Assembly: GCA_022606425.2 (NCBI GenBank) | Contig: JAHDVF020000494.1 | Span: forward strand, 124,001-188,000 | DNA from: Lepidostoma basale | Taxonomy: Eukaryota; Arthropoda; Insecta; Trichoptera; Lepidostomatidae | Direction: 5' to 3' | Length of the DNA stretch: 64,000 nt | Shown: in pieces, positions 4,727 through 62,815 of the stretch | How positions within the stretch are numbered: the first letter of the stretch is position 1 | Layout: every line of letters starts with the position of its first letter | The notes under the pieces: generated by a model | What the model saw: only the letters and a program-made list of their open reading frames with translations | Told to the model about the DNA's origin: nothing | Databases searched by the model: none | Translations under genes and position numbers: made by a program

Positions 4727-4880
4727 ACTGTTAAATTATAAAACTCTGTTTATGGCATTATCACCTATGTTAATTTTAACAGTTAAAAAAAATATTGTAA
4801 CCCCTGATAATGTCAACCTAGGTTGACGAAACAGCTGTCACATTTTTTTTACCATTAACAGAGTTTTATAATTTAACAGT
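4727..4880. repeat. Palindrome family E, copy 1
   Basis: The outer arms ACTGTTAAATTATAAAACTC (from 4727) and its reverse complement (ending 4880) enclose a hammerhead-like core. The flank after the right arm (AGTGTTTCGGCCAAAACAAT, near 4902) recurs next to copy 4 at 14342. Confidence 0.75.
4804..4839 (+). ncRNA. Hammerhead-like core, palindrome E
   Basis: CTGATAA (4804-4810), an extra T, then GTCAAC (4812-4817) pairing with GTTGAC (4822-4827) around the loop CTAG, then GAAA (4828-4831). ACAGCTGT forms a short stem III, ending U16.1 and C17 at 4838-4839. G8 is A, which is expected to abolish cleavage. It is a decayed member of the window-wide motif. Confidence 0.5.
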
Positions 4881-5133
4881 AAATCATGTTCAAATATCAG
4901 AGTGTTTCGGCCAAAACAATGGACTTATATTAGTTTGCCTAAAATAAAATCATAGATTTAACGTTTAATTGTACGTTTATCTGAGTTAGAACGAGAGTAT
5001 AATACCCTTTCTAACAATAATTATTATTATTTAAAACTCCATATTTAAAAAAAATATATAAATGAAAACGTCTGCCTTCTAGGAATTTTTATAATTTTTT
5101 TATGGGATGACATCTTTTGCTCTGAATTTTTTT

Positions 5134-5279
5134 ATGATATCACAATTATTATTATTATTAGCTTTTTGATTGTCGTGACAGATGTTTCGCCTACCGATGT
5201 CGTCGGGTGTTACAAACACCAGTTAGCGAAACAGCTGTCGCGACACGCAAGGAGTGATAATAATAATTGTGATATCATA
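5134..5279. repeat. Palindrome family E, copy 2
   Basis: ATGATATCACAATTATTATT at 5134 is mirrored at 5253-5279. The centre has GCGAAACAGCTGTCGCGAC (5226-5244) in one arm and the complement of GGCGAAACATCTGTCACGAC in the other. The minus strand reads CCGACGA before its hairpin, one change from CTGACGA. Confidence 0.65.
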
Positions 5280-5666
5280 ACTGTGGTTTACATTTTAACA
5301 GTTAACAAATAGTTTATAAAGTGAAAAATCGAAGATACGTAAACGTGAGGGTTAATGATGTCGATTAAAAAATATAGTCTTTTATCGCATTGAAAATGAA
5401 ATTGGTTTAATCCGTCAGCCTTCATTAGCGATGATGGTCCAGATATCCGAAGTTTCACGGACCTAATGGTTCTGATAAGTTCCGTAAAATTTCCCCGGCG
5501 ATTGAACAAAAGGTTTCCCGGCGCGATAAGCCCGTATCGGATGCTGGGCAGATGGCGGACAGGTGCTAGGATCACAACAGAGATCCGCCAGTGCCGCCAC
5601 GAGACACTCGCGATCCTCGATCATATGTTTTTTTTTATTGACTCAAAAAATGTTTTTTTTTGTCAT

Positions 5667-5735
5667 CTTCTTCTTCTTCTTTCTGTGTCTTGTCAGGTCT
5701 CCCTAACGTTGACTATCACCCTTGAGTAGGCCTCA
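5667..5735 (-). mobile_element. LINE 3' end, GAA-tailed (C lineage)
   Basis: CTTCTTCTTCTTTCTGTG followed by TCAGGTCTCCCTAACGTTGA matches the 3' ends at 16822, 52560 and 57966. Only about 70 bp is recognisable. Confidence 0.55.
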
Positions 5736-5850
5736 TGGTGATGACCTGGGGAAAAATATCCAGAGTGGTATCCCCTTGCCTTCTCTGGAGGATTTTGTGT
5801 CATCAACGATACTTATTTTAATTGCGTTGATTTTCACGGTTGGCAGCAAT

Positions 5851-5994
5851 ATGTTTTTTGGGATCTTGGGAAAACCCGTGTAACTCGTCTTTCTGGACAT
5901 TTATAACCACCCTGAAGATGGGTAATGCAACGATCTCCAAAACGTTGTTCCAGATAGACGAGTTACACGGGTTTTCCCAAGATCCAAAAAACAT
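5851..5994. repeat. Palindrome family C with hammerhead-like loop
   Basis: The arms at 5851-5896 and 5950-5994 are near-perfect reverse complements (ATGTTTTTTGGGATCTTGGG and on). In the loop, CACC is followed by CTGAAGA (5912-5918) and T; a weak GG/CC hairpin and then AAAAC stand where GAAAC is expected. Here the palindrome arms would be the hammerhead's stem I. Confidence 0.7.
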
Positions 5995-6122
5995 AATGCT
6001 TATTATATAAATATTTTATTAAAAAAATCACTTTATTCAATTAAATTTAAACTGTTTTTCTTTAAGTTGTTATTTTGTATATATTGAAAAAAATCTTTAC
6101 AACATAATTTTGAAAATATTTA

Positions 6123-6268
6123 TTTTTGTTAAAACCAATCGGTTTTGCCCCCGCCGGAACTTCATCAGGGTTACAAAAGACAATGGTAAGATAAAAGACG
6201 GTCAGCATCTTTTATAACCCCGACGAAGTTCCGGCGGGAGCGAAACCGGTTAATTTTAACAAAAAAAG
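6123..6268. repeat. Palindrome family B, both arms present
   Basis: The left arm (AAAACCAATCGGTTTTGCCC) and the right arm (6220-6262) are reverse complements, and each contains a hammerhead-like core on opposite strands. Minus: CTGATGA (6168 to 6162), a GTTCC/GGGGC hairpin, then AAAAC with G12 lost. Plus: CCGACGA (6220-6226), GTTCC pairing GGAGC, GAAA (6242-6245), then ACCGGTT as a two-base-pair stem III. Each copy has one core substitution. Confidence 0.75.
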
Positions 6269-6435
6269 AAGTGTAAAAACTATTAACATTTTGTTTTTAC
6301 AATTTTTAATAATACCACACCACAAATTAAAAATTATACTTTGTGTTCCATCTTTGTAAGCAAATTGTAAATTGAGTTGTGAAAACTGATTTTATTACTG
6401 TAATTATAAATTCATTGTAAAAACTGATTACAATG

Positions 6436-6900
6436 TTTTTGACAGTTTCTTCGTCTTGGTAACAATCCTGCGGATTGGTCTGCAACACTGCAAGAAGCTT
6501 CACTCGTTCCCTCCACTCAGTTCTGTCTTCAGCTAGTCTTTTCATTTCTGTGTGGCTGTCATAGCTCATGTCTCTCATCACCTGGTCCATTTAGGCGTCC
6601 CTTGGGCGGCCTCTGCAATTTCTACCCTCAATCATTCCCTTTGCTATAGTAATAAGTAGGCCTGGATGGCTAATATTTATGGCCTATCCAGTTTGATCAT
6701 TGTTGGGTAATCCTTTTGAGCATTTGACTCATTTCTTCGGTCCTTCTCATTACCTCGCTGTTTTGGATGTATTCCGATCAATGGACCCCATCATGCGTCT
6801 GTAGCACCACATTCAAAAGCGGCTAGACGTCTGTACTTTGGCAGTTTATCTTTTCTGAATTACGTTATTTGTTTTTAAGAAAGTCGTGTGCATCCATTTT
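6436..6900 (-). mobile_element. LINE 3' fragment
   Basis: The minus strand encodes a LINE C-terminus with MDQVMRDM, EMKRLAEDRTEWRERV and, further 5', a broken region matching the connection domain. It resembles the lineage inserted at 1997-2294. Frames are interrupted. Confidence 0.65.
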
Positions 6901-7573: not shown

Positions 7574-7576
7574 CTT

Positions 7577-7912: not shown

Positions 7913-8090
7913 TATACACTGTTAAATTAAAAAAATGTTTGTTTTATGTATCACAATTGTATTTTTATATTTCGCGACAGCTGTCAACCTATGTTGACAT
8001 CATCAGGTGTTACAATAAAATAGCAGTCGCGAAAAAGAAAAATTCAATTGTGATACATAAAACTTTTTTTTTTAAATTTAACAGTGTATA
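7913..8090. repeat. Palindrome family E, copy 3
   Basis: The arms TATACACTGTTAAATTAAAA (7913) and its complement ending at 8090 enclose CTGATGA on the minus strand (8006 to 8000), with GTCAAC/GTTGAC as stem II (7983-7998). The GAAAC expected next is cleanly missing: GTTGAC runs straight into AGCTGTC. Confidence 0.75.
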
Positions 8091-12520: not shown

Positions 12521-13032
12521 CATTCTTCTTCTATTAAAATAAGTATTCCATGGAAATTTACTTACACGTACATAAATAACTGATAGATTAATTTTTCTTT
12601 AAAATAAACGCTTTTTGAATCTTGCGTTTTGCTTTTTCAAATTAGTAGTTTTATTTATTAAAGCCCACGCGGGCTTTGGTTTCTCACGGCGGGGAAGAGG
12701 GATGTTTGGGATTGGGGTGAGAGGGGGAGTGGTGGTACTGGAATTCACCCTGTTAAATTAATCAGCAATCCGGCCTACAAAGGCTGTAATTAAGGGTTGT
12801 CACACACACCCCACCTGAGAAATTTTTTCTGGATTTTAACGGACAACTCCGTTGACGTATTCGAGCTTTTGACCTTTTTATACATTTGAGTGAAAGTAAT
12901 TATTAGCCACATAGTGGAGCGTGCTTTAGTTATGTTTTAATGATTGGTAAACGTAATAGATGTTGATATATTTTTGATAAACTTAATTCTTTTTATTTAT
13001 TCCTCTCTACTTTGTGATAAAATATTTTTATA
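12521..13032. other. No recognised gene; short GC-rich patch
   Basis: A G-rich stretch at 12690-12740 is unique here. Nothing else is recognised. Confidence 0.4.
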
Positions 13033-14060
13033 TTAGGTCCTTACATATGAAATTGGCGTTTTGTATGGGAGGAACATAAAGTTGATTTTTTTTAAATATA
13101 ATATATTTATTTAATCAAAGTATGTACCATTGCTATCTATGCACTTTTGCCATCTCATAGGTAGTTCATCGATTCCTTTACTAAAAAAAACATTCGGACG
13201 GGAATCAATAAAATCTTTGAAGTCGGTTTGGACTGCGCCATCGGAGTTGAATTTTTCCCTTGCAAGAAGTTTTCCAAATTTCGAAAAAAATAGTAATCTG
13301 TTGGGGCAAGGTCCGGAGAGTACGGTAGATGTCTTAGACATTCCAATTGAAGCTCTTCTAATTTGGTAGCCGTCTGTTGTGCAGTGTGTGGTCTAGCGTT
13401 ATCATGAAGCAGCAGTGGTCTAGAGCGATTAACCAGCCTCGGTTGTTTAGCAGCTAGCTTTTCCATCATGGTTTGCAGTTGCTGACAATAGACATCTGCC
13501 GTAATCGTCTGGCCAGATTTAAGAAAGCTGTAGTGAACGACACCAGCACTAGTCCCAATTTGCTTCAAGTGGATTAAAACAGTTTTATCACTAACACCGC
13601 AGCCTGCAGCTAACTCGGACGTGGTTTGCGATGGATCCGCTTCCACAATAGCCTTCAATTCTTCATTATCAACTTTGGTCTCCGGCCGTCCATGGGGCTT
13701 GTTCTGCAGGTCGAAATTTCCATAACGAAAACGTTGGAACCAAAAACGCACTGTGTTCTCTTTTGCGGCACCGTCGCCATACACATTATTAATCCTTCGA
13801 GCCGTTTCTGCAGCACTGGTGCCACGGTGGAACTCGCACTCGTAAATAACGCGATATTTCAAGTTTTCCATTTTGTAAACTGAGTGACGCAAAGAAAAGA
13901 AACAATTGAGGAAAAAACAAATGAATTATAATTTTCAAAACACAAATACTTGAGTAAATAGCTGTATAAATTTGAATTTGGAATTCCTAACCAAAGAGAA
14001 GATATTTGAGATCAAAGTTGCCAGTACGGCAAAACGCCAATTTCATATGTAAGGACCTAA
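13033..14060 (-). mobile_element. mariner element 1, internally deleted
   Basis: Perfect 31-bp terminal inverted repeats beginning TTAGGTCCTTACATATGAAA lie at both ends, with TA at 13031-13032 and 14061-14062 as target duplication. The element is 1028 bp against 1289 bp for its relative at 28521. Most of the difference is a 258-bp internal deletion. Confidence 0.95.
13111..13892 (-). pseudogene. mariner transposase, defective
   Basis: The N-terminal helix-turn-helix region is present (HRGTSAAETARRI, FWFQRF). So are the second and third catalytic aspartates in HDNARPHTA and YSPDLAPTDYYFF, separated by 34 residues as in mariner D,D34D. The block carrying the first aspartate (TCDEKW in copy 2) and the WVPHEL motif is gone through a deletion of 86 codons at about 13555. 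A one-base loss in a T run near 13250 shifts the frame, so the last ~50 residues are read in another frame. Confidence 0.9.
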
Positions 14061-14089
14061 TATTAATTTATGCTTGAACAATGAAGTAA

Positions 14090-14455
14090 AACTCCATATT
14101 AAAGAATTAATATGAATGAAAACGTCTGTCTTGTTCCTACAAACTCCCGTTTTATTATAAACTGTTAAATTAAAAAAACTTTGTTTAATGTATCACAATT
14201 GTATTTTTATTTTACGCGACAGCTGTTTAGTCAACCTATGTTGAAATTATCAGGTGTTAACACCTATCGCGTAAAATAAAAATACAAATGTGATACAAAA
14301 AACGAAGTTTTTTTTTTTAACAGTTTATAATGTTAAAATCATAGTGTTTCGGCCAAAACAATGGAGTTTAATTATATTTGATAATGCCTTAGAAGGGCCA
14401 GACATCTCATTATGTCTACAAAATAATACAACTCCTAGACGACGAACGTTTTAAT
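14090..14455. repeat. Palindrome M arms around palindrome E copy 4
   Basis: 14100-14150 (TATGAATGAAAACGTCTGTC) and 14381-14455 (TTTGATAATGCCTTAGAAGG) are the outer and right parts of a palindrome M. They enclose a palindrome E, which suggests nesting. Confidence 0.55.
14155..14330. repeat. Palindrome family E, copy 4
   Basis: The arms TTATAAACTGTTAAAT and its complement match copies 1 and 3. The minus-strand core reads CTGATAA, a TTCAAC/GTTGAC hairpin, then TAAAC, so G8 and G12 are both changed. Confidence 0.75.
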
Positions 14456-15367: not shown

Positions 15368-15425
15368 TTTATTTCGACGACGACCGGTTTCGCCAGGCTC
15401 GCTGACATCGACAGACTGGTCTGTA
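15368..15425 (-). repeat. Palindrome H-like hammerhead remnant
   Basis: The minus strand reads CTGTCGA, T, GTCAG pairing CTGGC around CGAGC, GAAA, then a CCGG stem III and a GTC triplet. Only A6 is changed (to T) in the core. No stem I complement is evident. Confidence 0.45.
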
Positions 15426-23850: not shown

Positions 23851-24030
23851 TAACTTATATTGTTCAATAATAAAAATATGTGAACAATGTTTATAACTTT
23901 ATAAACAACGCTAACTTTATTAAAAAATAAAATTAAAATACAAGCATGTTTCGGACACACAAGCCCATCGTCAGTGTTTTGTGAAGATGAAAAAACACTG
24001 ATGAAGAGCTCCTGTGTCTTGTTTTTTTTT
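23851..24030. repeat. Palindrome family N
   Basis: GTTTATAACTTTATAAACAA and the following arm recur at 23290-23325 and 24540-24570. Two oppositely oriented hammerhead-like cores face each other: minus at 23940-23977 and a decayed plus one at 23996 (CTGATGA, then no GAAAC). Confidence 0.55.
23940..23977 (-). ncRNA. Hammerhead-like core, palindrome N
   Basis: Minus-strand order: ACA (stem I), CTGACGA (23974 to 23968), extra T, GGGC pairing GTCC around TTGTGT, GAAA (23952 to 23949), CATG, then CT, and TGT completing stem I. U16.1 is C, the only core substitution that I see. Confidence 0.5.
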
Positions 24031-24154
24031 TCTTAAATAATGTTAGTGTTTCTTCTATGTTCGCCATACTTTGTGTTGTAGATGTATTATTTGTCTTTTT
24101 CTTTTTTATTTACTTTTTATACATAACACTAACTTAAAAAAAATTAAAAATACA

Positions 24155-24195
24155 TATCAGACATGTTTCGGATAACCGGTCCTTCTTCAGTGATA
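24155..24195 (-). ncRNA. Type I hammerhead ribozyme candidate
   Basis: Minus strand: TATCA (24195 to 24191), CTGAAGA (24190 to 24184), extra A, GGAC and ATCC around CGGTT, GAAA (24169 to 24166), C, AT, G, then U16.1 and C17 (24161, 24160), and TGATA (24159 to 24155) completing a 5-bp stem I. All catalytic core bases are present. Stem II has one mismatch. Departures from the canonical fold are the extra A after A9 and a stem III of two pairs. Confidence 0.6.
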
Positions 24196-24202
24196 CATAT
24201 TA

Positions 24203-24330: not shown

Positions 24331-24411
24331 TTAATATGATTGGTATAAATATACATATTTAAAATATTATAAAATCTGATCATGTTTGTAAACAATTATC
24401 TTTTTAATATG

Positions 24412-24452
24412 TATCACTGAAGAAGGACCGGTTGTCCGAAACATGTCTGATA
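24412..24452 (+). ncRNA. Type I hammerhead ribozyme candidate, best copy
   Basis: TATCA (24412-24416), CTGAAGA (24417-24423), extra A, GGAC/GTCC (24425-24428, 24434-24437) with loop CGGTT, GAAA (24438-24441), then C-AT-G as a two-base-pair stem III with the A15.1-U16.1 pair, GTC cleavage triplet (24445-24447), and TGATA (24448-24452). Every conserved hammerhead base is in place, stem II is perfect, and stem I is perfect over 5 bp. The predicted cut is after 24447. The single unpaired A before stem II is atypical. Confidence 0.65.
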
Positions 24453-24609
24453 GGTAATTTTGATTTTTTTAAAGTTAGTGTACATACAAAGTCGAGTACG
24501 AGTATATAAAAAAGAAAAAGACAAATAAAGTTAGTGTTGTTTACAAAGTTATTAACATTGTTCAATGAATCCGCATCACAAAGTTGAATATAGAATAAAT
24601 TAAAATGTG

Positions 24610-24650
24610 TTTTATTGCCGACCGGTTTCGATATCATACGTATCTTCTAT
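24610..24650 (-). repeat. Hammerhead-like remnant, palindrome H type
   Basis: The minus strand reads TAGAAGA, T, a weak hairpin ending ATATC, GAAA, CCGG and TC. Both C3 and U4 are changed. Confidence 0.35.
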
Positions 24651-24720
24651 ATTGAAGTAAATATTGGGATTATATAATTAATTTAAGGAATCATCGTGAA
24701 GTTATATACTTTTCTTTATT

Positions 24721-25994: not shown

Positions 25995-26100
25995 TAATGA
26001 ACCCTAAGGCATTATGGAATGTGGAATTCCATAGTAATATACTTAGGAATTCAAAAATAACTTTGTTTAATCCACTAATTATTAAAAAAATATTAAAAAA

Positions 26101-26139
26101 ACACGACATGTTTCGGAGGACACCCCCATTTTCAGGTGT
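26101..26139 (-). ncRNA. Hammerhead-like core, palindrome D left arm
   Basis: Minus strand: ACAC, CTGAAAA (26135 to 26129), extra T, GGGGG pairing CCTCC with one G-U around TGT, GAAA (26114 to 26111), CATG, TC, GTGT completing stem I. The only core defect is G8 changed to A. Confidence 0.55.
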
Positions 26140-26620
26140 AAAAATATAATAAAAACTAAACAAAGAAAGACAAATACAAAAACGCATTTAAAATTCGATA
26201 CAATAATTCAAATTTAAAAATTAACCTGGGCTATTTGTTATAAGTACTAATTAATATATTCGTATTATTTTTTGTCAGTAAGAACTAATAAATTATAATA
26301 ATACATGATGATAATAAAAAAAATATATAAAAATTGTAATTTAGAAAAAACATACATTTGAAAAGACATAATTTATATGAAATGAATAAAATGATTAATT
26401 TGCATTTGATTGGGATTGGGAATGTCATTAATTCGTTAATTAATTCACCATGTATTATTATTATTATTTAATATTATTCATTAGTTCTTACTGTTAAAAA
26501 AATTAATAGTTTGTACTTATAACAAATAGCTCAGGTTAATTTTTAAATTTGAATTATTGTATCGAATTTTAAATGCGTTATTATATTAGTCTTTCTTTGT
26601 TTAGTTTTCATTATATTTTT

Positions 26621-26658
26621 AGACCTGAAGATGGAGGTATACTCCGAAATTGTCGTGT
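26621..26658 (+). ncRNA. Hammerhead-like core, palindrome D right arm
   Basis: CTGAAGA (26625-26631) is intact, then T, GGAG pairing CTCC around GTATA, GAAA (26646-26649) and a shortened stem III ending GTC (26652-26654). One base is missing in the stem III loop and stem I has a mismatch. Confidence 0.5.
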
Positions 26659-26765
26659 TTTTTTAAATATTTATTTTAATAATTAGTGGATTAAACAAAA
26701 TTATTTTTCATTTCCTAAATAATATAAGAGTCTTTAAGATATTTCTTTAAGAGAGGTACAGTTAC

Positions 26766-28062: not shown

Positions 28063-28520
28063 AAAAATTACAAATTAAATTTTTGTAATATATTAATCTC
28101 GTTTTGCAATCCCCATTTAGGGGGATTGCAAAAACGTGACGAGACTTCACTGCGAAACTCGTGTTATGTAGATTGTTTGATAAATGCTTTCTGTTAACGC
28201 TTGTCTTGATCTCTTCGTATGATGTCTTTATAAGCCCCCGGGGCCTGGCGCCTCCGTTCTAGTCCCAGCCCCGGTACGGAACATTCGGTTGCCTTTCCGA
28301 GTGACCTGTCTCCCACGGGAACATCCCTACAAGGGGCTATTCTTCATTACTGAAACTACGCTATTTCAGCTGGTACATGGGTGTATTACATCATTGGAGT
28401 TATTATTTAATTATCCTATTTTGTTCTAGCTTAGGGTTACTTCTGGAATAACGAGTTCTAACGAAATGCGGTGTGATTTTAATACTTATTATAAAAGTAC
28501 AATTTTTTTCAAACGTTATA
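28063..28520. other. No recognised gene; GC-rich patch
   Basis: 28215-28340 is GC-rich (CCCCCGGGGCC) and unique in the window. Confidence 0.35.
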
Positions 28521-29809: not shown

Positions 29810-29904
29810 TATATAAATAGTAAGCTTTAATAAAATTTAAAATCCATTGTATTGAATATGAATCTTCTTGTATAACCTGTAATACCAATATTTAAATTCA
29901 GTAA

Positions 29905-34591: not shown

Positions 34592-34626
34592 TAACCTAAC
34601 CTATCCTAACTCTAACCTAACCTAAG
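34592..34626. repeat. Interstitial telomere-type array
   Basis: A run of CCTAA units with variants (CCTAT, CTCTAA) covers about 35 bp. CCTAA is the complement of the TTAGG telomere repeat used by most insects. Confidence 0.55.
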
Positions 34627-35516: not shown

Positions 35517-35520
35517 CTAG

Positions 35521-38457: not shown

Positions 38458-41400
38458 CTATTCCTGTTTGACTAAGTCCTTGATGTGAAATGTACCGATA
38501 CTTTTTCCAGCCATATCAGACAGTTCATATATGGTATCTGAAATTCTTTTGAGTATCCTGCACTTGATAAATCTGGGACACAGTTTGGCAGATATGTACC
38601 TTGAAGCGTCAGATTGAAGGAAGGCACGGCGCCAGACCAGTTGTCCGACATGCAAGGTACAAGATTTACGCCTTAGATTATACCGAGTAGCGTTCCGTTG
38701 GAAGGCTTGGAGTAGTGCGGAAGAAACTTCTTCATAGACATTTTCCATTCTAAGTAGGCCAGATGCGTAGTCCGAGGTGATGTCAGATGGATTATGGGAG
38801 TTTGATTCACGAACAAATTTATTGTGAAATGAACCGTGGGGAGCAGTTTCAAAGCCGTGCAAAAGAAAGAACGGGGTATATCCTGTAGCAATACTGACAG
38901 TATTATTTAAGCAAGATGAGATCTGTGGAAGCTTTGAACACCAAGTCCGTTGATTATTCCCTACCAGAATTGCCAGTGCGGTAATGATGTTTGCATTATG
39001 ACGTTCGCTTACATTGTTCTGAGGATGATAGCGGGCGTTGTAGTACAAGTCTTGTATTCCATAGGTTTCAGTGAACTTACGGAACTCCTTGGAGACAAAT
39101 TGACTTCCGTTGTCGATAATAAGCGTACGGGGAACAGAGTAAGGCAGAAATATTTTCTCCTCGAGTAATTTAATTACAGTTTTGGAGTTGGCTGTCCTAA
39201 GGGGAAACGCCCAAACAAATTTTGAAAAGTTGTCTACTACTGTCAGAATGTGACAGAAGCGATGATTGGACATCGGGAGTGGCCCTACGAGGTCTGCAGA
39301 CAAGGAGACGAGGGGTTTAGAAAGGCGTTTAGGCACCGTCATTAAACCTAAAGGGGACTGCGTGCTATGCTTATAGGCCTTGCAGGTGTCGCAAGTTTTT
39401 ATGAATTGTTTGATAGTGCGACGCATATTGCTCCAATAAAATGTTTGCGAGAGGGTTCTAAATGTTTTTTCAATCCCGGGATGACAGAAGTTGTTATGAA
39501 AGTCAGATATAACATGGGGGATTTCATTAGCGGGTACAACAACCTTCCAGAGGTAGCTGCTGGAGTCAGGGCGCGAGGAGTTTCCTGATTTCGAATAACG
39601 GTACAGGTGTTTGTTATTGATAAGATAGTTGGCTGTCGACTGCGGGTTATCCTTACATGCCGAATATAGATTTAGATAGGTTTGATCAGTCACGTTAGTG
39701 AAGGGCGGAGGGAAGGTCAGGGAGGACACTTCGATGCGACTTAGGGCATCAGCTAAATTGTTTTCGCAACCTTTTTTATATACAAAATCGAAACTATATT
39801 GTGATAGACGGCAAGCCCATCTGGCGAGTCTGCCTCCTGGCGATGACAGATTGTTCAAATATTTGAGACAGCCATGATCACTTTGGACCGTAAAGTGTGT
39901 GCCATCCAGGTAACTCCTGAAATGATGTACCGAATCCACAATAGACAATAGTTCGCGTTCAGTGGTAGAATAGGAACGTTCAGGAGCAGTCAGTTTTCGG
40001 GAAAAATACGCTATAGCATGCTCGGAACCGTCAGGCATTTTTTGGGCAAGGAAGCTACCAATACTAATACCACTGGCATCACAAGTAAGAATGTAGGGTA
40101 CAGAATAATCAGGGGGTTTCAACACAGGGGCGGTAGTCATAATATTTTTTAGGGCAACAAATGATTGTTCAGCCTCTTCGTTCCATTGGAAGGAAGTGCC
40201 TTTAAGCTTTATACTTGTTAAACGGCATAAAGGGGCAGCAATTTCGGCAAAATGTGCAATGAATTTACGATAGTAACTGGCACAGCCTAAGAAGGATTTA
40301 ACTTCTTTGGTAGATGTGGGACGGGGGAAATCAATCATTACCTTAATCTTATCTGGGTCAGTTCTTATTCCTTCACGATCAATCACATGGCCTAAGTACT
40401 TCAGTGAAGATTTGCAGAATTCTGATTTGCCTAGACGAATAGTGAGGTTGGCCTCGCGCAGACGTTCGTAAACCAGGGCGAGTGTGCTGACGTGAGATTC
40501 AAAATCTGGACTGCAAATAAGAATGTCATCGAGATAACAAAAAACATGGTCACCGAGATCACAAAATAGAGCATCCATTAACCTTTGCAACTGGCTCGGT
40601 ATATTGGCGATCCCGAATGGAGTAACTTTGAAACAAAACTGACCCCTACCCTCAATAAAGAATGCGGTTTTAATCATTGATTCTCTAGTCAGGGGCATCT
40701 GCCAGAACCCCATGCTTAAATCAAGGGCAGTAAGGTATTTAGTGTCACGCAGGTTGCTTAGAATTCGGTCAATGTTCGGTAAGCGATAACAGTCGGCTTT
40801 GGTAATCGAATTTAGTTTTCGCGGATCCAGAACGAATCGTGCAGAACCATCCTTTTTGGGGACAATAAATACATTATTTAGCCACGGGCTCTTGCAGGGT
40901 TCAACTACGTCCAGCGAGATCATTCTCTCTAGTTCCTCTATTAATTGTTGGCGGCGAACATGGGATTGGGGGAATGTTTTCTGTTTAACCGGCGGATGGT
41001 TACCCGTGTCGATCTCGTGATTAACAAGGTGGGTCCTGCCCAGACCTATCTTTTCGAAAGAAATTTGTTCGAACAAGTTTTTAATTCGGTCCAAGTCCTT
41101 GGACTGAGCAGGATTCAATTCTTCGGCAGGGACGAGACAAGATGGCGAGGGATTCACTGAGTACACGGGTTGAGTATTTGACTGTTTGGCTGGTTTGTTA
41201 TCCAGATGTCCAGGAAATAGCCTGGGAGTGAGTCCAGATGATTCAAGAAAAGGGACTCCAAGGATGAAACAGTCGTTTAGGGAAGGGACTAGGACGAATG
41301 ATACCCAGGTGGTGGTATTGTCATAACGAATGGGCAAGGTAACGGTTCCGATACTACGGTGGGAGGTATTATCGACCGTGTGAATTGAACAATTACCAGG

Positions 41401-41658
41401 GGTGATTTTATAATTGAGATTAATAAAGGATTGGTACAGATTTCCGCCTAAGATGTTGATGGCTGCACCGGAATCAAGCAGACCGCGAAAGGGGACACTG
41501 TGGATTTTAAAATTCAAGTATGGGCGATTGTCACGGGCATTTGTAATTTTTACCGCATGGAGATACCAGGTTTCGTGGAATAATTTTACAGAAGCCAGCC
41601 AGTCTAACCACTCCGCTGAGCGCGGGATTACGGGAGACTGGCTAGCTGCTAGTTTTTT
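38458..41658 (-). CDS. pol: Pol polyprotein (protease, RT, RNase H, integrase)
   Basis: The frame is open from the frameshift site to the stop at 38458, about 1067 residues, and has no start codon of its own. Protease active site LLDSGAA lies about 60 residues in. RT motif YLDD is at plus positions 40527-40538 with the LDLSMGFWQMPL block before it. RNase H has TCDASG. Integrase has the HHCC zinc finger (CHPG to CDTCKAYK) and the D, D, E motifs in SADLVGP, IIDNGSQF and NNVSERHN. A GPY/F-like end follows (LCPRFIKCRILKR). All catalytic residues that I can check are present. It copies the element RNA and inserts the cDNA. Confidence 0.93.
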   Translation of the reverse strand, partial: KKLAASQSPVIPRSAEWLDWLASVKLFHETWYLHAVKITNARDNRPYLNFKIHSVPFRGLLDSGAAINILGGNLYQSFINLNYKITPGNCSIHTVDNTSHRSIGTVTLPIRYDNTTTWVSFVLVPSLNDCFILGVPFLESSGLTPRLFPGHLDNKPAKQSNTQPVYSVNPSPSCLVPAEELNPAQSKDLDRIKNLFEQISFEKIGLGRTHLVNHEIDTGNHPPVKQKTFPQSHVRRQQLIEELERMISLDVVEPCKSPWLNNVFIVPKKDGSARFVLDPRKLNSITKADCYRLPNIDRILSNLRDTKYLTALDLSMGFWQMPLTRESMIKTAFFIEGRGQFCFKVTPFGIANIPSQLQRLMDALFCDLGDHVFCYLDDILICSPDFESHVSTLALVYERLREANLTIRLGKSEFCKSSLKYLGHVIDREGIRTDPDKIKVMIDFPRPTSTKEVKSFLGCASYYRKFIAHFAEIAAPLCRLTSIKLKGTSFQWNEEAEQSFVALKNIMTTAPVLKPPDYSVPYILTCDASGISIGSFLAQKMPDGSEHAIAYFSRKLTAPERSYSTTERELLSIVDSVHHFRSYLDGTHFTVQSDHGCLKYLNNLSSPGGRLARWACRLSQYSFDFVYKKGCENNLADALSRIEVSSLTFPPPFTNVTDQTYLNLYSACKDNPQSTANYLINNKHLYRYSKSGNSSRPDSSSYLWKVVVPANEIPHVISDFHNNFCHPGIEKTFRTLSQTFYWSNMRRTIKQFIKTCDTCKAYKHSTQSPLGLMTVPKRLSKPLVSLSADLVGPLPMSNHRFCHILTVVDNFSKFVWAFPLRTANSKTVIKLLEEKIFLPYSVPRTLIIDNGSQFVSKEFRKFTETYGIQDLYYNARYHPQNNVSERHNANIITALAILVGNNQRTWCSKLPQISSCLNNTVSIATGYTPFFLLHGFETAPHGSFHNKFVRESNSHNPSDITSDYASGLLRMENVYEEVSSALLQAFQRNATRYNLRRKSCTLHVGQLVWRRAFLQSDASRYISAKLCPRFIKCRILKRISDTIYELSDMAGKSIGTFHIKDLVKQE
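41594..41646 (-). promoter_or_regulatory. Frameshift-stimulating stem-loop
   Basis: In element sense GCTAGCCAGTC (41646 to 41636) pairs over 11 positions, one of them G-U, with GACTGGCTGGC (41604 to 41594). The 31-nt loop has a small CCGC/GCGG hairpin. It starts 5 nt after the slippery site, the usual spacing for a -1 frameshift stimulator. Confidence 0.75.
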
Positions 41659-42593
41659 GTTGCGAAAAAACTGGGGGGTGGTCTAGAGGTGTCAGGAAGG
41701 TTTTTTTTTCTGCAATTCTTGGCGATATGGCCCAGGTTTTTGCAGGAGAAACATCTTAGGGGGCTCTTGGGAGGCACACGAACGGCAGCTAGGGATTTCT
41801 GGACGTAGGGGCCGGATTTAGGTTCAGAGCGGCTGGGGTGGTCCGACGCACCAATCAATCTTTCGTAGGTCTGGCATGCTCTCTCCAGTTCCACGACGGA
41901 GGAGAAGTTGGCTGAAATTATTACGGGGGCTAATTTGGGCGAAAGTCCCTTCCTTAATACCTTGAGGATCTCCTGGTCAGAGAGACCGTCCTCCCCAATG
42001 GTATTATTGGTGCTCACTACCCGGGCGAAGTAGTCTGCCGCTAATTCATTTTGAGACTGGCGCGAGGACCATATCTCCAGCTTCTTTGAGATGACATAAT
42101 CGTCATCCTCGAAACGCTGCAGGAACTGTGACTTAAGGAGCAACCAGTCACTGGAGGTCGTACAATACGCTCTATAGTGTGTCAGAGCGCGGCCTTTGAG
42201 GAATTCGGGAAGTACAGATGGCAACAATTGGGAGTCGAAGCGTCTAGATTTGGCGATTTCTTCTAGACGGGTGAAAAATTCGCGCACATCTTCCGCGCCG
42301 GTGAAATGTTGCACAGGCCACGATGCGAAATCAACATTCAAGGGCTGAAGCTCTACAGGGGGTCGTGTTAGAGAAACCGATGAAGAGGACACGATTGAAA
42401 GGGGGGCGGAGGTCGGCAGGTCAGCGACGGTGGGGGGTATGGTGAGTGGAACGACATCACTCGTCCGTGAGTTGAATTCCTCAGCCTGAACACGGACTTC
42501 CACGAGGGTATTCTTTGGCAATATTCCGCGATCCTTCAACGCCTTGCAAAGGGTTTTGAAATGGGCCCCGGGAACATTTACTATTTGTTCCAT
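41649..42593 (-). CDS. gag: Gag, nucleocapsid-type
   Basis: 314 codons from the ATG at 42593. The C-terminal zinc knuckle CFSCKNLGHIAKNC is a CCHC box of the CX2CX4HX4C type. The central part (WPVQHFTGAEDVREFFTRLE, then LPEFLKGRALTHYRAY) resembles capsid regions of Gypsy elements. It forms the particle that packages element RNA. The stop TAG (41651-41649) directly follows the slippery heptamer. Upstream in-frame codons to 42602 lack an ATG. Confidence 0.93.
   Translation of the reverse strand: MEQIVNVPGAHFKTLCKALKDRGILPKNTLVEVRVQAEEFNSRTSDVVPLTIPPTVADLPTSAPLSIVSSSSVSLTRPPVELQPLNVDFASWPVQHFTGAEDVREFFTRLEEIAKSRRFDSQLLPSVLPEFLKGRALTHYRAYCTTSSDWLLLKSQFLQRFEDDDYVISKKLEIWSSRQSQNELAADYFARVVSTNNTIGEDGLSDQEILKVLRKGLSPKLAPVIISANFSSVVELERACQTYERLIGASDHPSRSEPKSGPYVQKSLAAVRVPPKSPLRCFSCKNLGHIAKNCRKKNLPDTSRPPPSFFATKN
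41652..41658 (-). promoter_or_regulatory. -1 ribosomal frameshift heptamer AAAAAAC
   Basis: Read in the gag frame as A AAA AAC followed at once by TAG. A slip of one base back enters the pol frame (K K L A A S), which stays open for over 1000 codons. It matches the X XXY YYZ rule exactly. Confidence 0.85.
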
Positions 42594-42702
42594 TATAAAC
42601 AATTAATCACAAACTACCAATTCGACAATAAACAGTTAACAATCAATATACGACATATGTTTAGCCCACACAAGTCCTTCATCGAATGACAACGCCAGAA
42701 CG

Positions 42703-42720
42703 CCACACGTTTGGGCGCCA
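42703..42720 (-). promoter_or_regulatory. Primer binding site, tRNA-Lys type
   Basis: One base inside the 5' LTR, the element reads TGGCGCCCAAACGTGTGG. The 3' end of arthropod tRNA-Lys(CUU) would call for TGGCGCCCAACGTGGGG, so the first nine bases match and the rest fit with one extra A and one mismatch. Confidence 0.7.
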
Positions 42721-42721
42721 G

Positions 42722-43726
42722 TGTAATGGGTGTCTCCCTACCTCGGCTAGCGCAGAGAGCGGGCCCTTAGATCTCCGGTTTTCTCGTGAGATACTTTCCG
42801 GCTTGTCATTCGAATAGGGAAAGGTGTAAATAAATACATATGACGGAATACATGAGGGTTTATTATAACACAAAAAAATAGTTACAATAGTTATCTAGGG
42901 GCTAGAGATGTCGTACGTATAAAAAAAAGAGGCACATGGTGAAATAATGAAGAGGCTGTTTGCGGCGATTCCTCGACGGCGTGCTCGTCAGGACATCGAC
43001 CGGCGACGTCGTCCGTAGACGTTATCAGCGACGCTGACCAGAAGATGGTGGGTCAGCAAATCAATATGTAAAGCGTCACCTGGCAGACACGAGGTTCCCT
43101 AACCTGTTGGTGCTGTCTGAAGCGGCGTGAAGTGGTCCTCGCAGTTCCGCATGGTGGTGAGGTCAACCACGTTGTCGGGGCATGATGTGCGACAACACGT
43201 GGGCGGCAATTTCGGGAGCAGAGGATGGCTCGGACCGTGGCGGAGGGAATCAACCGCAGCAAGGTCGGGCTTGACAAACGGCCTGGGAGCGGATATGCAC
43301 TTTTGGCATCGCCATAGCGCAGGACAAGTTGGCAGAAAACCTGAAATAATGCCACAGATTTTATGGGCACGATGGCAAGTACCGCAAATACCTTGCTCGA
43401 AGTTATTCCATGGCGGATGAGGCTAGATGGAAACGGATTATCCCATCGGGAAAATCGCGGGTCGAAACGGCGATCCTCCAATCGATGCCGCGAAGTTGAC
43501 AGCTCAAAACGAAGTGAAGTCGGGCCGAATGGGGCTGAGAGTGAACTGCCGAGGGCGCACACATCGGGGTGAATTTAGCGCCAAATCCGAGAAGCGCGCG
43601 GGAACAAGAGTTTAAAGTAGCACTCTGGTGGTAAAAACGGGAACTAGGGGTTTGAATGGGGTCTAGAGCTAAACACTGAATATTAAGATAACCGAAAATA
43701 AATAAGAAATAGTAACTTACGTTACA
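42722..43726 (-). repeat. 5' LTR
   Basis: 1005 bp, TGTAATGGG to GTTACA on the plus strand. It contains the element's promoter by position; I see no diagnostic TATA box that I can defend. Confidence 0.95.
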
Positions 43727-43730
43727 CTAG

Positions 43731-45125: not shown

Positions 45126-45126
45126 T

Positions 45127-45325
45127 TAATTAATATGAATGAAAACGTCAGTTTTCTAGAAGTTTTATTATGTTTTATGACAATGACATGTTTCGCCCTT
45201 CGAAGGCATTATTAAATGACAAAAGACATTTGATTATGCCTTAGAAGGGCGAAACATGTCATTCTCATTAAAATATAATAAAACCCATAGAAAACGGACG
45301 TTTTCATTCGTATTAATAAATTTAA
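45127..45325. repeat. Palindrome family M, complete
   Basis: The arms AATATGAATGAAAACGTC and its complement enclose TTTTCTAGAAGTTTTATTAT and, nearer the centre, GACATGTTTCGCCCTTCG facing GAAGGGCGAAACATGTC. The plus-strand core reads TTGATTA, T, GCCTT with a GGGC partner, GAAAC, ATGTC: the hammerhead pattern with a degraded first box. Confidence 0.8.
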
Positions 45326-45690: not shown

Positions 45691-45698
45691 TTAGTTTT

Positions 45699-45798
45699 AT
45701 AAACTGTGACAAATATGTTTCGTCTTGCGAGGGCATTCCCAAACAAAGCAGTTTGAGAATGCCCTCGCAAGGCGAAACAAATTTGTCACAATTTATAT
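45699..45798. repeat. Short palindrome, M-like
   Basis: ATAAACTGTGACAAATATGT is mirrored by the end at 45798. The inner arms TTGCGAGGGCATTC face GAATGCCCTCGCAA, followed by GGCGAAAC. Confidence 0.75.
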
Positions 45799-45880
45799 AA
45801 TTTATATAAATTAAATCCAAGTTAAACCACTAAACAATCGTATTTACTATTATAATTAATTTATTTAATGGAGTCTTACA

Positions 45881-48990: not shown

Positions 48991-49004
48991 TTAGTTAATT
49001 CTCT

Positions 49005-49044
49005 CACCCTGACGAAGCTCCGGCGGGAGCGAAACTGGTTGGTG
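49005..49044 (+). ncRNA. Hammerhead ribozyme candidate, family B
   Basis: CACC (49005-49008), CTGACGA (49009-49015), extra A, GCTCC/GGAGC (49017-49021, 49026-49030) around GGCG, GAAA (49031-49034), C-TG-G stem III, U16.1 and U17 (49039-49040), GGTG (49041-49044) completing stem I. All conserved bases are present and both stem I (4 bp) and stem II (5 bp) are perfect. The triplet is GTT. The sequence of the helices differs from the family A copies. Confidence 0.6.
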
Positions 49045-49339
49045 TTACCAAATGAAGTGATGTTAATACATATTACTAAAAGTGTATTATTATTTTATTT
49101 ATTATAAAATAAATTCTCTATTATATATCTAGCCTCAGTGAACAGCACTGACGTTTCTATACTAAGCATCTATTCTGTATAAGAATTACTGATCATGGTT
49201 TGACGATATTCATCCTTTGACGATATTTTAAATTCAATTAGTTTTAGAAATAAGTTTTCATATCGATTAACGCCATTCGAATCATTTGCTTTTTTGTGTA
49301 TTTTATCTCAATGTAGAAGAAGCGCGATAGTTATGAAAT

Positions 49340-50575: not shown

Positions 50576-50689
50576 CGGGTAATATTATTTTACGGGGAAG
50601 TTTTTTATTATGTCCATAAATTTAATGTTCATAGTTCTTTTATACAGGTTAGTGTGTTTAAAAGCACTATAAAATTATAATATAGTTTA

Positions 50690-50950
50690 TTTCCCTTTTT
50701 CTTTTTTATATACTTATGTTAAACACTTATATTTAAAAAAAATACATAGACATGTTTCGGACAACCAGTCTATTGCTTACATGATTTGACAGATGTTATA
50801 TGAGAAAGGACTGGTTGTCCGAAACAAGTCTATGTAATTTTATGATTATAATATAAGTGTTGTACATATAATATATACAAAGTACATAAAAAAGAAAAAA
50901 GGAAATAAAGCATCATAACAATACAAAGTATGGCGAATATAGAAGAAACT
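50690..50950. repeat. Palindrome family A, copy 3
   Basis: The left arm (TATATACTTATGTTAAACAC to GACATGTTTCGGACAACCAG) faces the right arm (GGACTGGTTGTCCGAAACAA to ATAGAAGAAACTAC). The first hammerhead boxes are lost in both arms (GAGAAAGG on plus), so only stem II and GAAAC survive. Confidence 0.75.
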
Positions 50951-52905: not shown

Positions 52906-53424
52906 ACGGGACAATTATCGGGCAAGAGTAAAAATCTTTTCCGTAATTGTGTTACGTTTACTGGAAATAAATTTCTTTTATGTTTGCCCTCGGAGCAATA
53001 AGTTAAAAATACGCAGCAACACGCAGCGAAATAAGCTTCGGCGTCTAGAATAAAAGGCTATGGACGAGTAGCGGCAAAGCGGTTCAGCGAAGAGACATTT
53101 TATAACTCAATTCTTTTGGAGTATTTTCTTTTCCTCTCCGGAGCCACTCCTCCATTGTTATGTTATTATGATGATACATCTAAAAATACGCAATAATCGT
53201 ATTTTCTCAACCTTTATAGGTACAGAAAATGCGGTCTTTGTGTTGGAATCCCGCACAAAAGGTATGTTAAATGTTAAAAAAATAAAGTTCGTTTACCGGG
53301 TTTTTGATATTGTTTTAAACGATTTATTTGCTGTGGTAAAGGGATAACAATATTTAAAGAAATATATTTGATTCATTGATTGTTTTTTGAACAATGACGT
53401 AAAACTCTGTATTAAATTATTAAT
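52906..53424. other. No recognised feature
   Basis: No supported gene or repeat. Confidence 0.4.
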
Positions 53425-53620
53425 ACGAATGAAAAAGTCCGTTTTATAAAAGTTTTATTATGTTTTATGTGAATGATATTTTTTTCATGTTTTAATGCAT
53501 TATCAAATGTTTGTTTTTCTTAATCAACACCATTTGATAAGATTGCCTTAGAAAGGCGAAACATGTCGTTCCCATAAAATATAAATTAACTTCTAGAAAA
53601 AATACGTTTTCATTCGTATT
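53425..53620. repeat. Palindrome family M
   Basis: TACGAATGAAAAAGTCCG to AAAGTTTTATTATG at left faces AATATACGTTTTCATTCGTA-type sequence at right. The right arm has GCCTTAGAAAGGCGAAACAT, that is stem II plus GAAAC, after a degraded TTGATAA box. Confidence 0.75.
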
Positions 53621-53639
53621 AATGATAGTGTATTTGATT

Positions 53640-53900
53640 CACTTATAGTTTTATATTACAGGAGGTATCCTGAAGATGGAGGTATCCTCCGAAACGTGTT
53701 TTAATATTTTTTATTAAATAGTGGATTAAACAAAGTTTGTCAATTTAGTAAGGAATTCCACTGTGTGAATGCCTTAACCTTCAATAAACATCTAGAATAA
53801 TTTCGTTTCTAATGTGTGTTGTTGCTAGAAAAATTCTATAAATTTATTGAAAGTTAAGGCATTTACACTATGGAATTCCATTATTAAATACTTTGGATAT
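53640..53900. repeat. Palindrome family D, copy 2
   Basis: It shares GTGGATTAAACAAAG and TAAGGAATTCCACTG with 26040-26700. The inverted arms GGAATTCCACTGTGTGAATG (53743) and its partner near 53885 form the outer hairpin. Confidence 0.65.
53666..53700 (+). ncRNA. Hammerhead-like core, palindrome D copy 2
   Basis: CTGAAGA (53670-53676), extra T, GGAGG/CCTCC (53678-53682, 53686-53690) around TAT, GAAA (53691-53694), C-GT-G, U16.1 and U17 (53699-53700). The core is complete; no matching stem I is visible because the upstream side carries a duplicated GGAGGTATCC. Confidence 0.5.
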
Positions 53901-59730: not shown

Positions 59731-59781
59731 TAAATCGATTCCTTAACGATGAAGTTAAACTCCAAATTCAATAATAAACAT

Positions 59782-60059: not shown

Positions 60060-60235
60060 TTTTTAAAAAATATTTAATTGGAATGACATGTTTCGCCAAA
60101 TTTTTTAATGCCTCACAAACCCAAAACACGACAATCTCTTAAAATAAAATAAAACATCTATAAAACTGATCATTATTTTTAACCCCACCAGTCTATCTCC
60201 TTCCGTAAATTTATCAGGGTGACAAAATACATAGT
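60060..60235. repeat. Decayed palindromes M and B
   Basis: GGAATGACATGTTTCGCCAA (60081) is an M left arm. At 60180-60235 the minus strand reads CACC, CTGATAA and later CTGGTGGGG, like a degraded B core. Confidence 0.45.
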
Positions 60236-60884
60236 TGAAACAATTGAATTAACCAATCATGCTCAAATTGAAACAAAACCTTTTGGTACTATTTAAAAAA
60301 AAAATACATTGGTGTTTAAACAAAATATTGTTTAATTTATCTTTAAAAAATTTACGCTTTAATTTTTAGCGTAAGTATTCCATATGTAAGTTAACACGTA
60401 CAACTACAGATTTATTAAAAAAATCCCTGGAAAAAATACGTTTTCTGAATGTTTTATGTTATTATACGAGATTGATAGGTTTCGCCTTGGGGTTTATCAA
60501 AAAAATTACATTAAATTCACAAATTTTACTTATATGTAATGGCATACAAGAATATGTTAAGGGCATCCATTGTACCCGAGACTTCTAGGACGCAGCGGGG
60601 CCCTTTCGTTAGCCTCGCTCGTTCAGTTTCTAGGCCCTTCCCCCGTCTATCTAGGACTGACATTAACAAATCAAAAGCGACATCAGGTCTCATTTAATCT
60701 ATTATTTTTTGTAATACAACCATTTTTATGCTACAATACTAGCAAGATGAAACATTATATCATAAAACTTCTCGATATTTCATAGCGAATATTTTTAATT
60801 ATTATTTCAATGCTACAGCCATGACCTAGGCATTTAAACTTACCCCCCAACATTATTTTATATGACATTTTGAATGTATACAAA
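60236..60884. other. No recognised gene; M scrap near 60475
   Basis: GAGATTGATAGGTTTCGCCT at 60469 resembles an M arm. 60560-60640 is a GC-rich patch, unique here. Confidence 0.35.
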
Positions 60885-61235
60885 TACTTGTAGACAAATA
60901 CTGGATTTAACCCATTGCGGGTTAGTCATTTTTAAGGAATAATTGCATCTCAATAGAGACGAAGATGTAATTTTTTTTTTGGAAACAATATGGTGGTCGA
61001 GGCGCTTACAGGACTTATGACTTGTCATTGGTTGGGTTAAGCGATCGCTTTATGTTAACAACATTCCCCATTCCGCCCTTCTTACGACCACCACGTCTGA
61101 CAATTTTTTGGAAGATGTATATATGTCGCCATGTTGAGAAACACTTCACATTTTTTAGTTCAATCTACACTAGCGCCATCCATTATTTTATATGGACCGG
61201 TGCGCCAGTAGACGATTCATATGATTATGTTTATC
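60885..61235. mobile_element. Palindrome F long element, interior reversed
   Basis: Terminal arm AAATACTGGATTTAACCCAT to GAGACGAAGATGTAA, then the reverse complements of segment Y (ATGGTGGTCGAGGCG to GTCTGACAATTTTT) and segment X (CACTTCACATTTTTTAGTTC). The far arm is missing. Confidence 0.7.
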
Positions 61236-62195
61236 CAAGATAAATTCTCCATATATTAACAATTATATTTTTAAACAACTCTTTGATTGTGAAATATAAA
61301 GTGCCAAATACCGAATGCTCTTGAATGTAATAATCTTCCTCGAAGAAAGACTATTCAGAGTTCATCGCAAAATGCCTCAAATGACCCCTAGTTTTCCATT
61401 TGCACAGGGAATTTCCTCTTTCGAATGGCACAACTGGAGGGCGATACGCGATAACATTTATTTTCCCGCCGTTAAGTGGTTTTTCACAATAAGGCACCAA
61501 CTGTTGCGTTTTGCAATAAATGCTCGACGTTAAAAGTTTCAAGATGGAAATTTTTCGACTATGAATTTTAATAAACTTTCTTTGTGTTTTCAACATTCAA
61601 TTTTTATATTTTATTTTTGCTATAAATACATTACATATTAATAATAAAATAATAACTCCGAAGCGATCGTGTTCATTTTGATTGCTCTCCCCACCGGCAT
61701 CAATTGAGGAAGGCTGCTTCTGCATGTTGGGTGATAAAACAGTCTCTGCTGACGCTGTCATAGGTAACCATCCCGAGCATAAATATGGATACCCACCAAG
61801 ATGACGGATTTCTCAAAGAATCCACTAATAAGTCTGAAGAATAGGTTAGTGTGAACCCATCGCTCATTTTCTGTATACTTTTGGTCTCCAGCATGCCCAA
61901 GAGGATTTCGGTGGAATAAAGCCACGGATAGCTACCAAAATCTCTCATGTAGAGTTATCTCAGAAATCTTTTCTGAACCCACTCTAATATTATGCTAGAT
62001 TTTACATACAAAAACTGAAGCAGTATGAAAACTCTGTACTATGTTCCGAAGACGAACGTTTTTGCCTTTATAAACTTCCTAACATATTGATATAAATAAT
62101 CCCAAATGTACAAAAACAATGTTTATTTTTATTACGTATTGTTTAATATTATTTCTTGAACATTGATGGAACACTTCATAATTAATAATTAAAAC
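61236..62195. other. No recognised gene
   Basis: 61320-61600 and 61680-61970 are less AT-rich and unique, with short open frames on both strands but no motif that I know. Confidence 0.35.
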
Positions 62196-62198
62196 TAC

Positions 62199-62670
62199 GG
62201 ACATGGAACTGGCAAAAGAAGGATGAAAGTAGAATAAATGCAGTAGAAATGAGATCTCTTAGACGAATGTGTGGATACTCTGTGTATGATAGAGTTTCGA
62301 ATGAAAATATAAGAAGTGAATGCGGTGCGAATGATGGTGTCATGAACAAAATAATGAAAGGATCATTAAGATGGTTTGGACATATGGAAAGAATGAATGA
62401 AGAAAGAATGGTAAAAAAATTATATGTTAATGATGTAAATGGAACCCGAAATAGAGGAAGACCGAGGAAAACGTGGCACGATCAAATAAATCAAATATTG
62501 AATGTCGGCCATGTGAGGAGTCAGAGAAATCGACGCGCGTGCATGACACGATGTATTAATGTTGAGGAAGCGAGAGAAATATGTCAGGAAAGAAAAGTGT
62601 GGCAGTCCATTCTTTCTGTCTACCCCTTCGGGGAGACGGCGTGATGGTTAGTTAGTTAGGTAGTTAGTTA
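62199..62670 (+). mobile_element. LINE-T 3' copy, intact reading frame
   Basis: An unbroken frame of 131 codons from 62249 to the stop at 62644, with the upstream NWQKKDES codons also in frame. Blocks SLRRMCGYSVYD, SECGANDGVMNK, WFGHMERMNEERM, GRPRKTWHDQIN, RRACMTRCINVEEAR and YPFGETA end at TGA inside GGCGTGATGG, then TTAG repeats. It is the best preserved LINE-T end and probably recent. Confidence 0.9.
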
Positions 62671-62687
62671 ACTACGGAATACGTTTG

Positions 62688-62815
62688 TTTCTTCTATATT
62701 CGCCATAACTTTGTGTTGCGGATGATTCATGTTTCTTTTTTATATACTTTGTATACAACACACACTTAATTTAAAAAAACATGTTTCGAACACACAAGCC
62801 CTTCATCAGTGATAT
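62688..62815. repeat. Palindrome A/N left arm
   Basis: GTTTCTTCTATATTCGCCAT and TTTTTTATATACTTTGTATA match the left arm at 24048. It leads to a minus-strand hammerhead-like core. Confidence 0.65.
62778..62809 (-). ncRNA. Hammerhead-like core
   Basis: Minus strand: CTGATGA (62809 to 62803), extra A, GGGC and GTTC pairing with G-U pairs around TTGTGT, GAAA (62787 to 62784), CATG, TT. The core is complete with the GTT triplet, but TATCA upstream has no TGATA partner downstream. Confidence 0.5.

Follow-up and report, generated by a model that had tools for sequence, protein, structure and literature searches.

What kind of element leaves the same hammerhead-like RNA motif in the arms of several dissimilar palindromes is the question raised by a 64,000-nucleotide stretch of the genome of the trichopteran Lepidostoma basale (assembly GCA_022606425.2, contig JAHDVF020000494.1, positions 124,001 to 188,000; hereafter the window, which is part of contig C1101 in the 769-Mb assembly G000). 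An earlier note on this DNA described at least six unrelated palindrome families (A, B, D, E, M, and N) that share a CTGANGA core, an extra A or T, a hairpin, and GAAAC, and proposed a selected hammerhead-type RNA carried by a previously unnamed superfamily of fold-back elements. Our analysis upholds the RNA and leads to another host: each palindrome is very probably the relic of one insertion of a Penelope-like element (PLE), in which two 5'-truncated copies of the retrotransposon lie head-to-head with one hammerhead per arm. Families A, D, E, M, and N were recognized with the stem II pairs that had been named for them, GGAC/GTCC (A), GGAGG/CCTCC (D), GCTCC/GGAGC (E), GTCAAC/GTTGAC (M), and GCCTT/AAGGC (N), while the sequence meant by family B could not be identified and is perhaps the GGGC/GTCC helix at 23952 and 62787. 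A further family, F, enters the analysis below.

The shared architecture was borne out in the window. The pattern CTGANGA-(5-35)-GAAAC matched 7 times against 0.74 expected, and 7 or more matches were reached in 0 of 100 shuffles; at least one of the seven (54662, minus strand) lacks any hammerhead feature. An exact core with four or more stem II pairs occurred 6 times versus a mean of 0.055 in 200 dinucleotide shuffles, and the full descriptor, which allows a single core mismatch and demands NUH together with four or more pairs in each of stems I and II, occurred 3 times versus a mean of 0.010 in 200 such shuffles. In all three full-descriptor matches A9 is separated from stem II by a single additional base, and matches with zero extra bases numbered 0. 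Judged from its sequence, the architecture is a predicted minimal type I hammerhead, consisting of CTGANGA, the extra A or T, stem II, GAAA, a self-complementary stem III, and UH.

Covariation was then measured in an alignment of 18 of 23 listed copies, from which A1, A5, M2, N3, and N5 were omitted (A4, A8, A9, and E5 stand outside the list). Stem II had been used in part to select the copies, and stems I and III had played no part. Stem II was paired in 86.7% of cells compared with 53.2% after shuffling, and stem I in 58.3% compared with 38.2%; neither value was reached in 500 shuffles. Because related copies inflate such counts, the 3' strands were swapped between families with one copy per family. 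With seven families this gave a P value of 0.0016 for stem I and <0.0001 for stem II, and with eight families, including genome copies (27 rows), a P value of 0.0003 for stem I. Both stems around the core therefore covary beyond shuffles and beyond between-family swaps, which supports the claim of a selected RNA with compensatory change; covariation of stem II, on which that claim had been made to hinge, was significant.

The positions of the core behave as expected of a type I hammerhead. A9 was invariant in 20 of 20 window copies and A13, A14, and A15.1 in 19 of 19, with N7 the most variable position, U16.1 present in 18 of 20 copies, and H17 in all 20. Individual copies are frequently broken, G8 being retained in 11 of 20, and at positions 3 and 8 the 20 copies divide into 11 with C-G, 4 with U-A (each an N or N-like copy), 4 with C-A, and 1 with U-U. 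Departures also follow family, at positions 3/8 in N (U3-A8; UUGAUAA) and at position 6 in F (CUGUCGA). The F copies of loci L053 to L059 have the core CTGTCGA in common, that is, U6 for A6, and retain it in near-identical young copies; in a hammerhead described elsewhere, the A6C change is slow (PMC3088659). The extra base is not random, being T in 13 and A in 7 of the 20 window copies and C or G in none.

Stem III, which had gone unmentioned in the first description of the motif, is a self-complementary stretch after GAAA that ends in U and is followed by C or U. It reads ACATGT in A, D, and N, ACCGGT in E and F, ACAGCTGT in M, and ACAAATTTGT in copy N6, while a copy without stem II (54065, minus strand) has ACGTACGT in its place. 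Among 178 GAAAC sites inspected, a self-complementary stretch with UH follows 12 of 23 that have four or more stem II pairs and 14 of 155 that do not, 11 of these 14 being assigned by eye to the same families; at control AAC sites the figure was 43 of 2209. Several of the remaining 11 sites with stem II are one base off (E3, A5, A7, D3, and E5). Stem III is thus reduced and keeps a capacity for pairing between copies, which would suit dimeric ribozymes in which two copies share it.

The motif is abundant in the genome. In the window's own assembly, the strict A/D core gave 14,023 matches compared with 1 for a reversed-pattern control. Of the first 100 matches listed, 81 show three or more pairs in stem II, and in 80 of these 81 the insertion is a single base (A in 43, T in 36, C in 1, G in none), the other one lacking it. 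Three similar patterns run over 2.9 million viral contigs gave 14 matches, 3 with a stem II of at least 4 pairs and none with a stem I of more than 2 pairs. Related copies sought in viral contigs, other genome contigs, and phages were either absent or matches without stem I.

The probable identity of the host element comes from the open reading frames (ORFs) beside the motif. A GIY-YIG search of the genome, in which 150 of 542 candidates were scored, gave at least 62 matches, and 12 longer loci, picked for long frames or inverted neighbors, were examined. L053 and L054 each carry an ORF of 758 amino acids, and that of L054 contains the reverse transcriptase (RT) domain RVT_1 (E value, 1.4e-13) and a GIY-YIG domain (6.6e-5). 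At both loci the ORF is followed on its 3' side by an F hammerhead in the same orientation and has a second, inverted one on its 5' side. D-type hammerheads share the strand of the GIY-YIG match at L026, L033, L036, L038, L039, and L040. Around 30 GIY-YIG places there were 59 hammerhead-model matches; the strand was inspected in 17 and was that of the GIY-YIG match in 13 and the opposite one in 4. As a separate observation on this search, two of its top three matches, L023 (G000:C102) and L025 (G000:C729), have ORFs of ~600 amino acids that by eye resemble bacterial UvrC, which suggests that bacterial contigs, perhaps from symbionts, are part of the assembly.

The hammerhead is also followed by an ORF start, in F at a nearly constant distance. 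In 23 rows found by searching for the F ORF start (19 distinct places), the spacing from cleavage site to start was 66 nt in 21, and 20 of the 23 reach codon 14 of MNFHQEISVKSFDY, with one residue altered in 2, before their flanks diverge. For family A, the ORF start MANIEET has 44 genome matches 90 to 120 nt behind GAAACATGTC, one of the 44 being behind an N-type unit. In the window it is encoded by ATGGCGAACATAGAAGAAAC at 24048 to 24067 (minus strand), outward of copy A2, with further instances at 50930 (plus) and 62706 (minus). At the D locus L026, MVNIED was read by eye 97 nt past the cleavage site. The likeness between MANIEE in three window A copies and MVNIED in this one D locus speaks against the description of the families as unrelated. 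A pseudo-long terminal repeat (pLTR) that carries the first ORF codons, as in PLEs, is therefore seen in F (14 codons), A (MANIEET), and D (MVNIED, one locus). An ORF with both RT and GIY-YIG is found in F, adjoining GIY-YIG frames in D, and a similar ORF start in A.

The loci that retain ORFs reveal how the palindromes are built. L055 contains two ORF pieces head-to-head with hammerheads facing outward, and outward-facing F pairs were seen in L055 to L059 and in L061. Inverted arms in nine loci (L040, L053 to L059, and L061) range from 241 bp (L040, family D; 91.7% identity) to 1,433 bp (L055; 99.8%), and as whole palindromes L056 measures 2,283 bp and L059 2,046 bp. The F insertions have fixed outer ends and variable centers, and in L055, L057, L058, L059, and L061 one end enters the ORF start while the other stops short, an arrangement of inverted head-to-head pLTRs with a tail on one. 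Target duplications enclose both copies together in each of the six F loci tested; they vary in length (10, 11, 12, 12, 13, and 13 nt) and comprise six different sequences, and random controls equaled their length in 0 to 4 of 200 trials. One 10- to 13-nt duplication flanks both copies, and the pair is therefore one insertion.

Collectively, these findings suggest that the repeated unit is the 3' end of a PLE, made up of a minimal type I hammerhead, a spacer of 66 nt (F) or about 90 to 107 nt (A) before the ATG, and the first ORF codons. On each strand of the target break, reverse transcription would begin within the region of the ORF start, and the two cDNAs would extend unequally and join at their 5' ends; such two-strand priming and joining of 5'-truncated cDNAs would account for the fixed outer ends, the variable centers, and the single target duplication. 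Copies that stopped early would leave the hammerhead arms alone and mimic fold-back elements. The hammerhead itself may cut multi-copy transcripts as a dimer sharing stem III, a mode suited to tandem copies. Since the second arm of a palindrome is antisense and would trap the ribozyme, the fold-back form is likelier a by-product than a design. Arms of this kind are PLE ends, in F by the RT/GIY-YIG ORF and in D by GIY-YIG frames, and the notion of a previously unnamed fold-back superfamily is not supported; head-to-head copies and minimal pLTR hammerheads are both already known for PLEs.

Several observations weigh against this interpretation. On the side of the RNA, many copies have broken cores, stem I is discontinuous in M and has two pairs in most N copies, and the commonest listed A subtype (5' ATGTATCA, 3' TATGTAAT) needs a bulged C in stem I. 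Single-copy folding was no better than that of shuffles in 5 of 5 tested copies, and of 8 copies compared, 4 gave a double hammerhead with a predicted energy lower than that of two monomers and 4 gave one with a higher energy. An Rfam scan of the window, at the gathering cut-off and at an E value of 10, found no hammerhead; its best matches, below the cut-off, were microRNA-like and located on the palindromes. On the side of the element, RT was tested in family F only, the D-type hammerhead of L037 and three other matches lie on the strand opposite the GIY-YIG match, and no ORF was found beside E, M, or N units in the loci examined. The probable assignment of E, M, and N to PLEs rests on their common architecture and that of A on its ORF start. 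Matches of the window's A, E, M, and N types in GIY-YIG loci are mostly separate insertions and uninformative on their ORFs, and a candidate N ORF start, xEFYIIVQETI, has three matches beside the cleavage motif, all without ATG, a weak hint. Hammerhead mutants of PAc, a PLE of Anolis carolinensis, are unaffected in insertion in vitro (PMC11167929).

Three other explanations were weighed. The palindromes could be DNA transposons resembling miniature inverted-repeat transposable elements (MITEs), with the motif in their terminal inverted repeats acting as a transposase-binding or DNA-hairpin signal, as the short, symmetric repeats and the like outer ends of several N copies would suggest. The inverted arms of the same kind in F, however, reach 1.4 kb and contain a PLE ORF, the centers vary between fixed outer ends, A9, A13, A14, and A15.1 are invariant while N7 varies most, and stem III is self-complementary. 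This explanation, considered at the outset, was dropped for F and D after the ORF-bearing arms, the arm lengths, and the target duplications had been seen; F, with a PLE ORF inside, variable centers, and duplications of 10 to 13 nt, does not have the makeup of such an element, and we consider it improbable overall.

We hold it equally improbable that the units are non-autonomous animal retrozymes, that is, tandem type I hammerhead repeats of ~170 to 400 nt that spread via small circular RNAs. Two sets of direct repeats in the window would fit, A2 and A7 ~217 nt apart and a pair at 63369 to 63450 and 63919 to 64000 with 94% identity. In contrast, among 100 genome places listed, the 17 pairs of neighbors within 1.5 kb comprise 13 divergent, 3 direct, and 1 convergent, and the F and D units adjoin PLE ORFs, with the ORF start on the F units themselves. 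Chance, finally, would have CTGANGA fall by luck in hairpins that were noticed in palindromes, and the partial choice of copies on stem II and the unremarkable folding of single copies speak for it. The genome-wide count of core matches, against 0 + 1 in the reversed control, excludes it for practical purposes; stems I and III are moreover independent of that choice, and the 14 viral-contig matches show no stem I beyond 2 pairs.

The PLE interpretation places the motif among known systems. Type I hammerheads of minimal form, devoid of a true helix III, have been reported in the pLTRs of PLEs and dispersed across animal genomes (PMC7761336, PMC6155905), where they are attributed to Cervera and de la Pena (2014) and Lunse et al. 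(2017). The hammerheads described here share with them the type I core, the tiny stem III, probable dimeric cleavage, the pLTR location, and thousands of dispersed copies. Points of difference are the single A/U inserted after A9, the self-complementary stem III, which in several sequences spans six to ten bases, and the N and F cores. An extra base in PLE hammerheads was not met in the literature searched, which excludes the original minimal-hammerhead papers, and we do not claim that it is unreported. The hammerhead of the plus strand of the viroid CChMVd has an extra A10 in the same place (de la Pena and Flores 2001, in PMC3705267); there, A slows cleavage moderately and is tolerated, U speeds it, and C or G are harmful (PMC3705267). 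The preference for A and T in the genome copies fits these tolerances, whereas the viroid case concerns a single sequence and no retrotransposon.

The Penelope elements of Adineta vaga likewise have head-to-head inverted pLTRs, palindromes at the junctions, a pLTR that takes in the first 12 codons, a tail on one side, 5' truncation, and target duplications of 8 to 10 bp or none, and self-priming is favored there (PMC3846280). These structural features recur here, but copy number is low in A. vaga and very high in L. basale, and the main text of that account uses the word hammerhead 0 times. For PAc, the protein has been reported to cut and extend both target strands and to initiate inside the element (PMC11167929). 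Our elements resemble it in RT plus GIY-YIG and in a hammerhead by the ORF start, and, by the mechanism proposed above, in initiation inside the element and probable use of both target strands. The PAc ORF begins at stem II and contains the cleavage site, whereas the predicted site here lies before the ATG.

In the window itself, 12 inverted hammerhead pairs, picked by eye and non-exhaustive, are all divergent. The family A pair consists of A2 on the left arm (24150 to 24200, minus; CTGAAGA-A-GGAC..ATCC-GAAACATGTC, with at least 8 pairs in stem I and 3 in stem II) and A3 on the right arm (24407 to 24457, plus), which has an intact core, 5 pairs in stem I, 4 in stem II, and ACATGT as stem III. 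A7 (23933 to 23984, minus) lies downstream of A2 as its direct repeat. A second family A palindrome (50686 to 50909) has decayed hammerheads at 50758 (minus) and 50821 (plus), A1 (503 to 554, plus) has a decayed core, and A6 (62768 to 62819, minus) reads CTGATGA-A-GGGC..GTTC. The two direct A units near the window's end lie ~550 bp apart, the second extending past that end, and are a possible tandem copy. At 24540 to 24680 (minus), a hairpin followed by GAAACCGGTC at 24629 has a poor upstream core and is perhaps a further family.

The family D palindrome (26040 to 26721), 85% identical over 386 bp to the GIY-YIG locus L036, contains D1 (26095 to 26145, minus; stem I ACAC/GTGT, G8A) and, on its right arm, D2 (26615 to 26665, plus); D3 (53660 to 53710, plus) is a single copy. 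The family E palindrome (6061 to 6331) holds E1 (6127 to 6178, minus) and E2 (6210 to 6261, plus; stem III ACCGGT). E3 (48999 to 49050, plus) has an intact core and CACC/GGTG as stem I, and its centroid fold consists of stems I and II; the relative E5 (1608 to 1659, plus) has the core CTAATAA. Family M comprises M1 (4794 to 4847, plus; stem III ACAGCTGT, without stem I), M2 (7968 to 8016, minus), which has lost GAAAC by deletion, and M3 (14210 to 14263, minus). F1 (15372 to 15424, minus), with the core CTGTCGA, closely resembles the hammerhead of the F elements of L053 to L059. Family N has palindromes at 45126 to 45320 (N1, 45175 to 45225, minus, TTAATAA; N2, 45220 to 45270, plus, TTGATTA; extra T) and at 53416 to 53626 (arms at 53510, minus, and 53558, plus), and an N-like palindrome at 45695 to 45800 holds N6 (45743 to 45793, plus; stem III ACAAATTTGT) and N7 (45702 to 45752, minus). 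Flank similarity between families, over 133 pairs and uncorrected, was equaled in 0 of 200 controls for A2/D1 and likewise for A3/E2 and D3/E5; in AT-rich sequence such flank kinship is unconvincing.

Other repeats are present. Direct repeats of 97% identity (35519 to 36555 and 42720 to 43728) surround a Gypsy-type gag-pol (38458 to 42602), and the whole is a fairly young long terminal repeat retrotransposon; near the top of the best 120 listed matches to its pol protein, the only named one is a Plutella xylostella protein at 44% identity, and this match and the repeats both point to an insect. Two mariner-type transposase regions (13028 to 14097 and 28516 to 29847) are 96% identical, and a short (TTAGG)n-like tract at 34592 to 34625 has the motif of the insect telomere repeat.

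Elements of this kind are already known; less ordinary are the insertion fixed across families and the altered cores of N and F. The role of PLE hammerheads is called unknown in a review (PMC7761336). One idea, which we offer as a doubtful one, is that a whole clade of PLE hammerheads here inherited its A/U at position 10 from a common ancestor as a fixed trait, that at least two lineages, N and F, later rewrote the core, and that the fold is maintained for some function besides rapid cleavage, such as a stem III-dimerizing signal that would bring two PLE RNAs to both strands of one break and so yield head-to-head insertions. As a caution, annotations as "fold-back" or "MITE" may be truncated head-to-head PLEs. 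The ~14,000 core matches, the divergent families, an insertion with known biochemistry, and the young U6 copies of F amount to a set of natural variants, which let one ask whether cleavage, dimerization, or the fold alone is selected.

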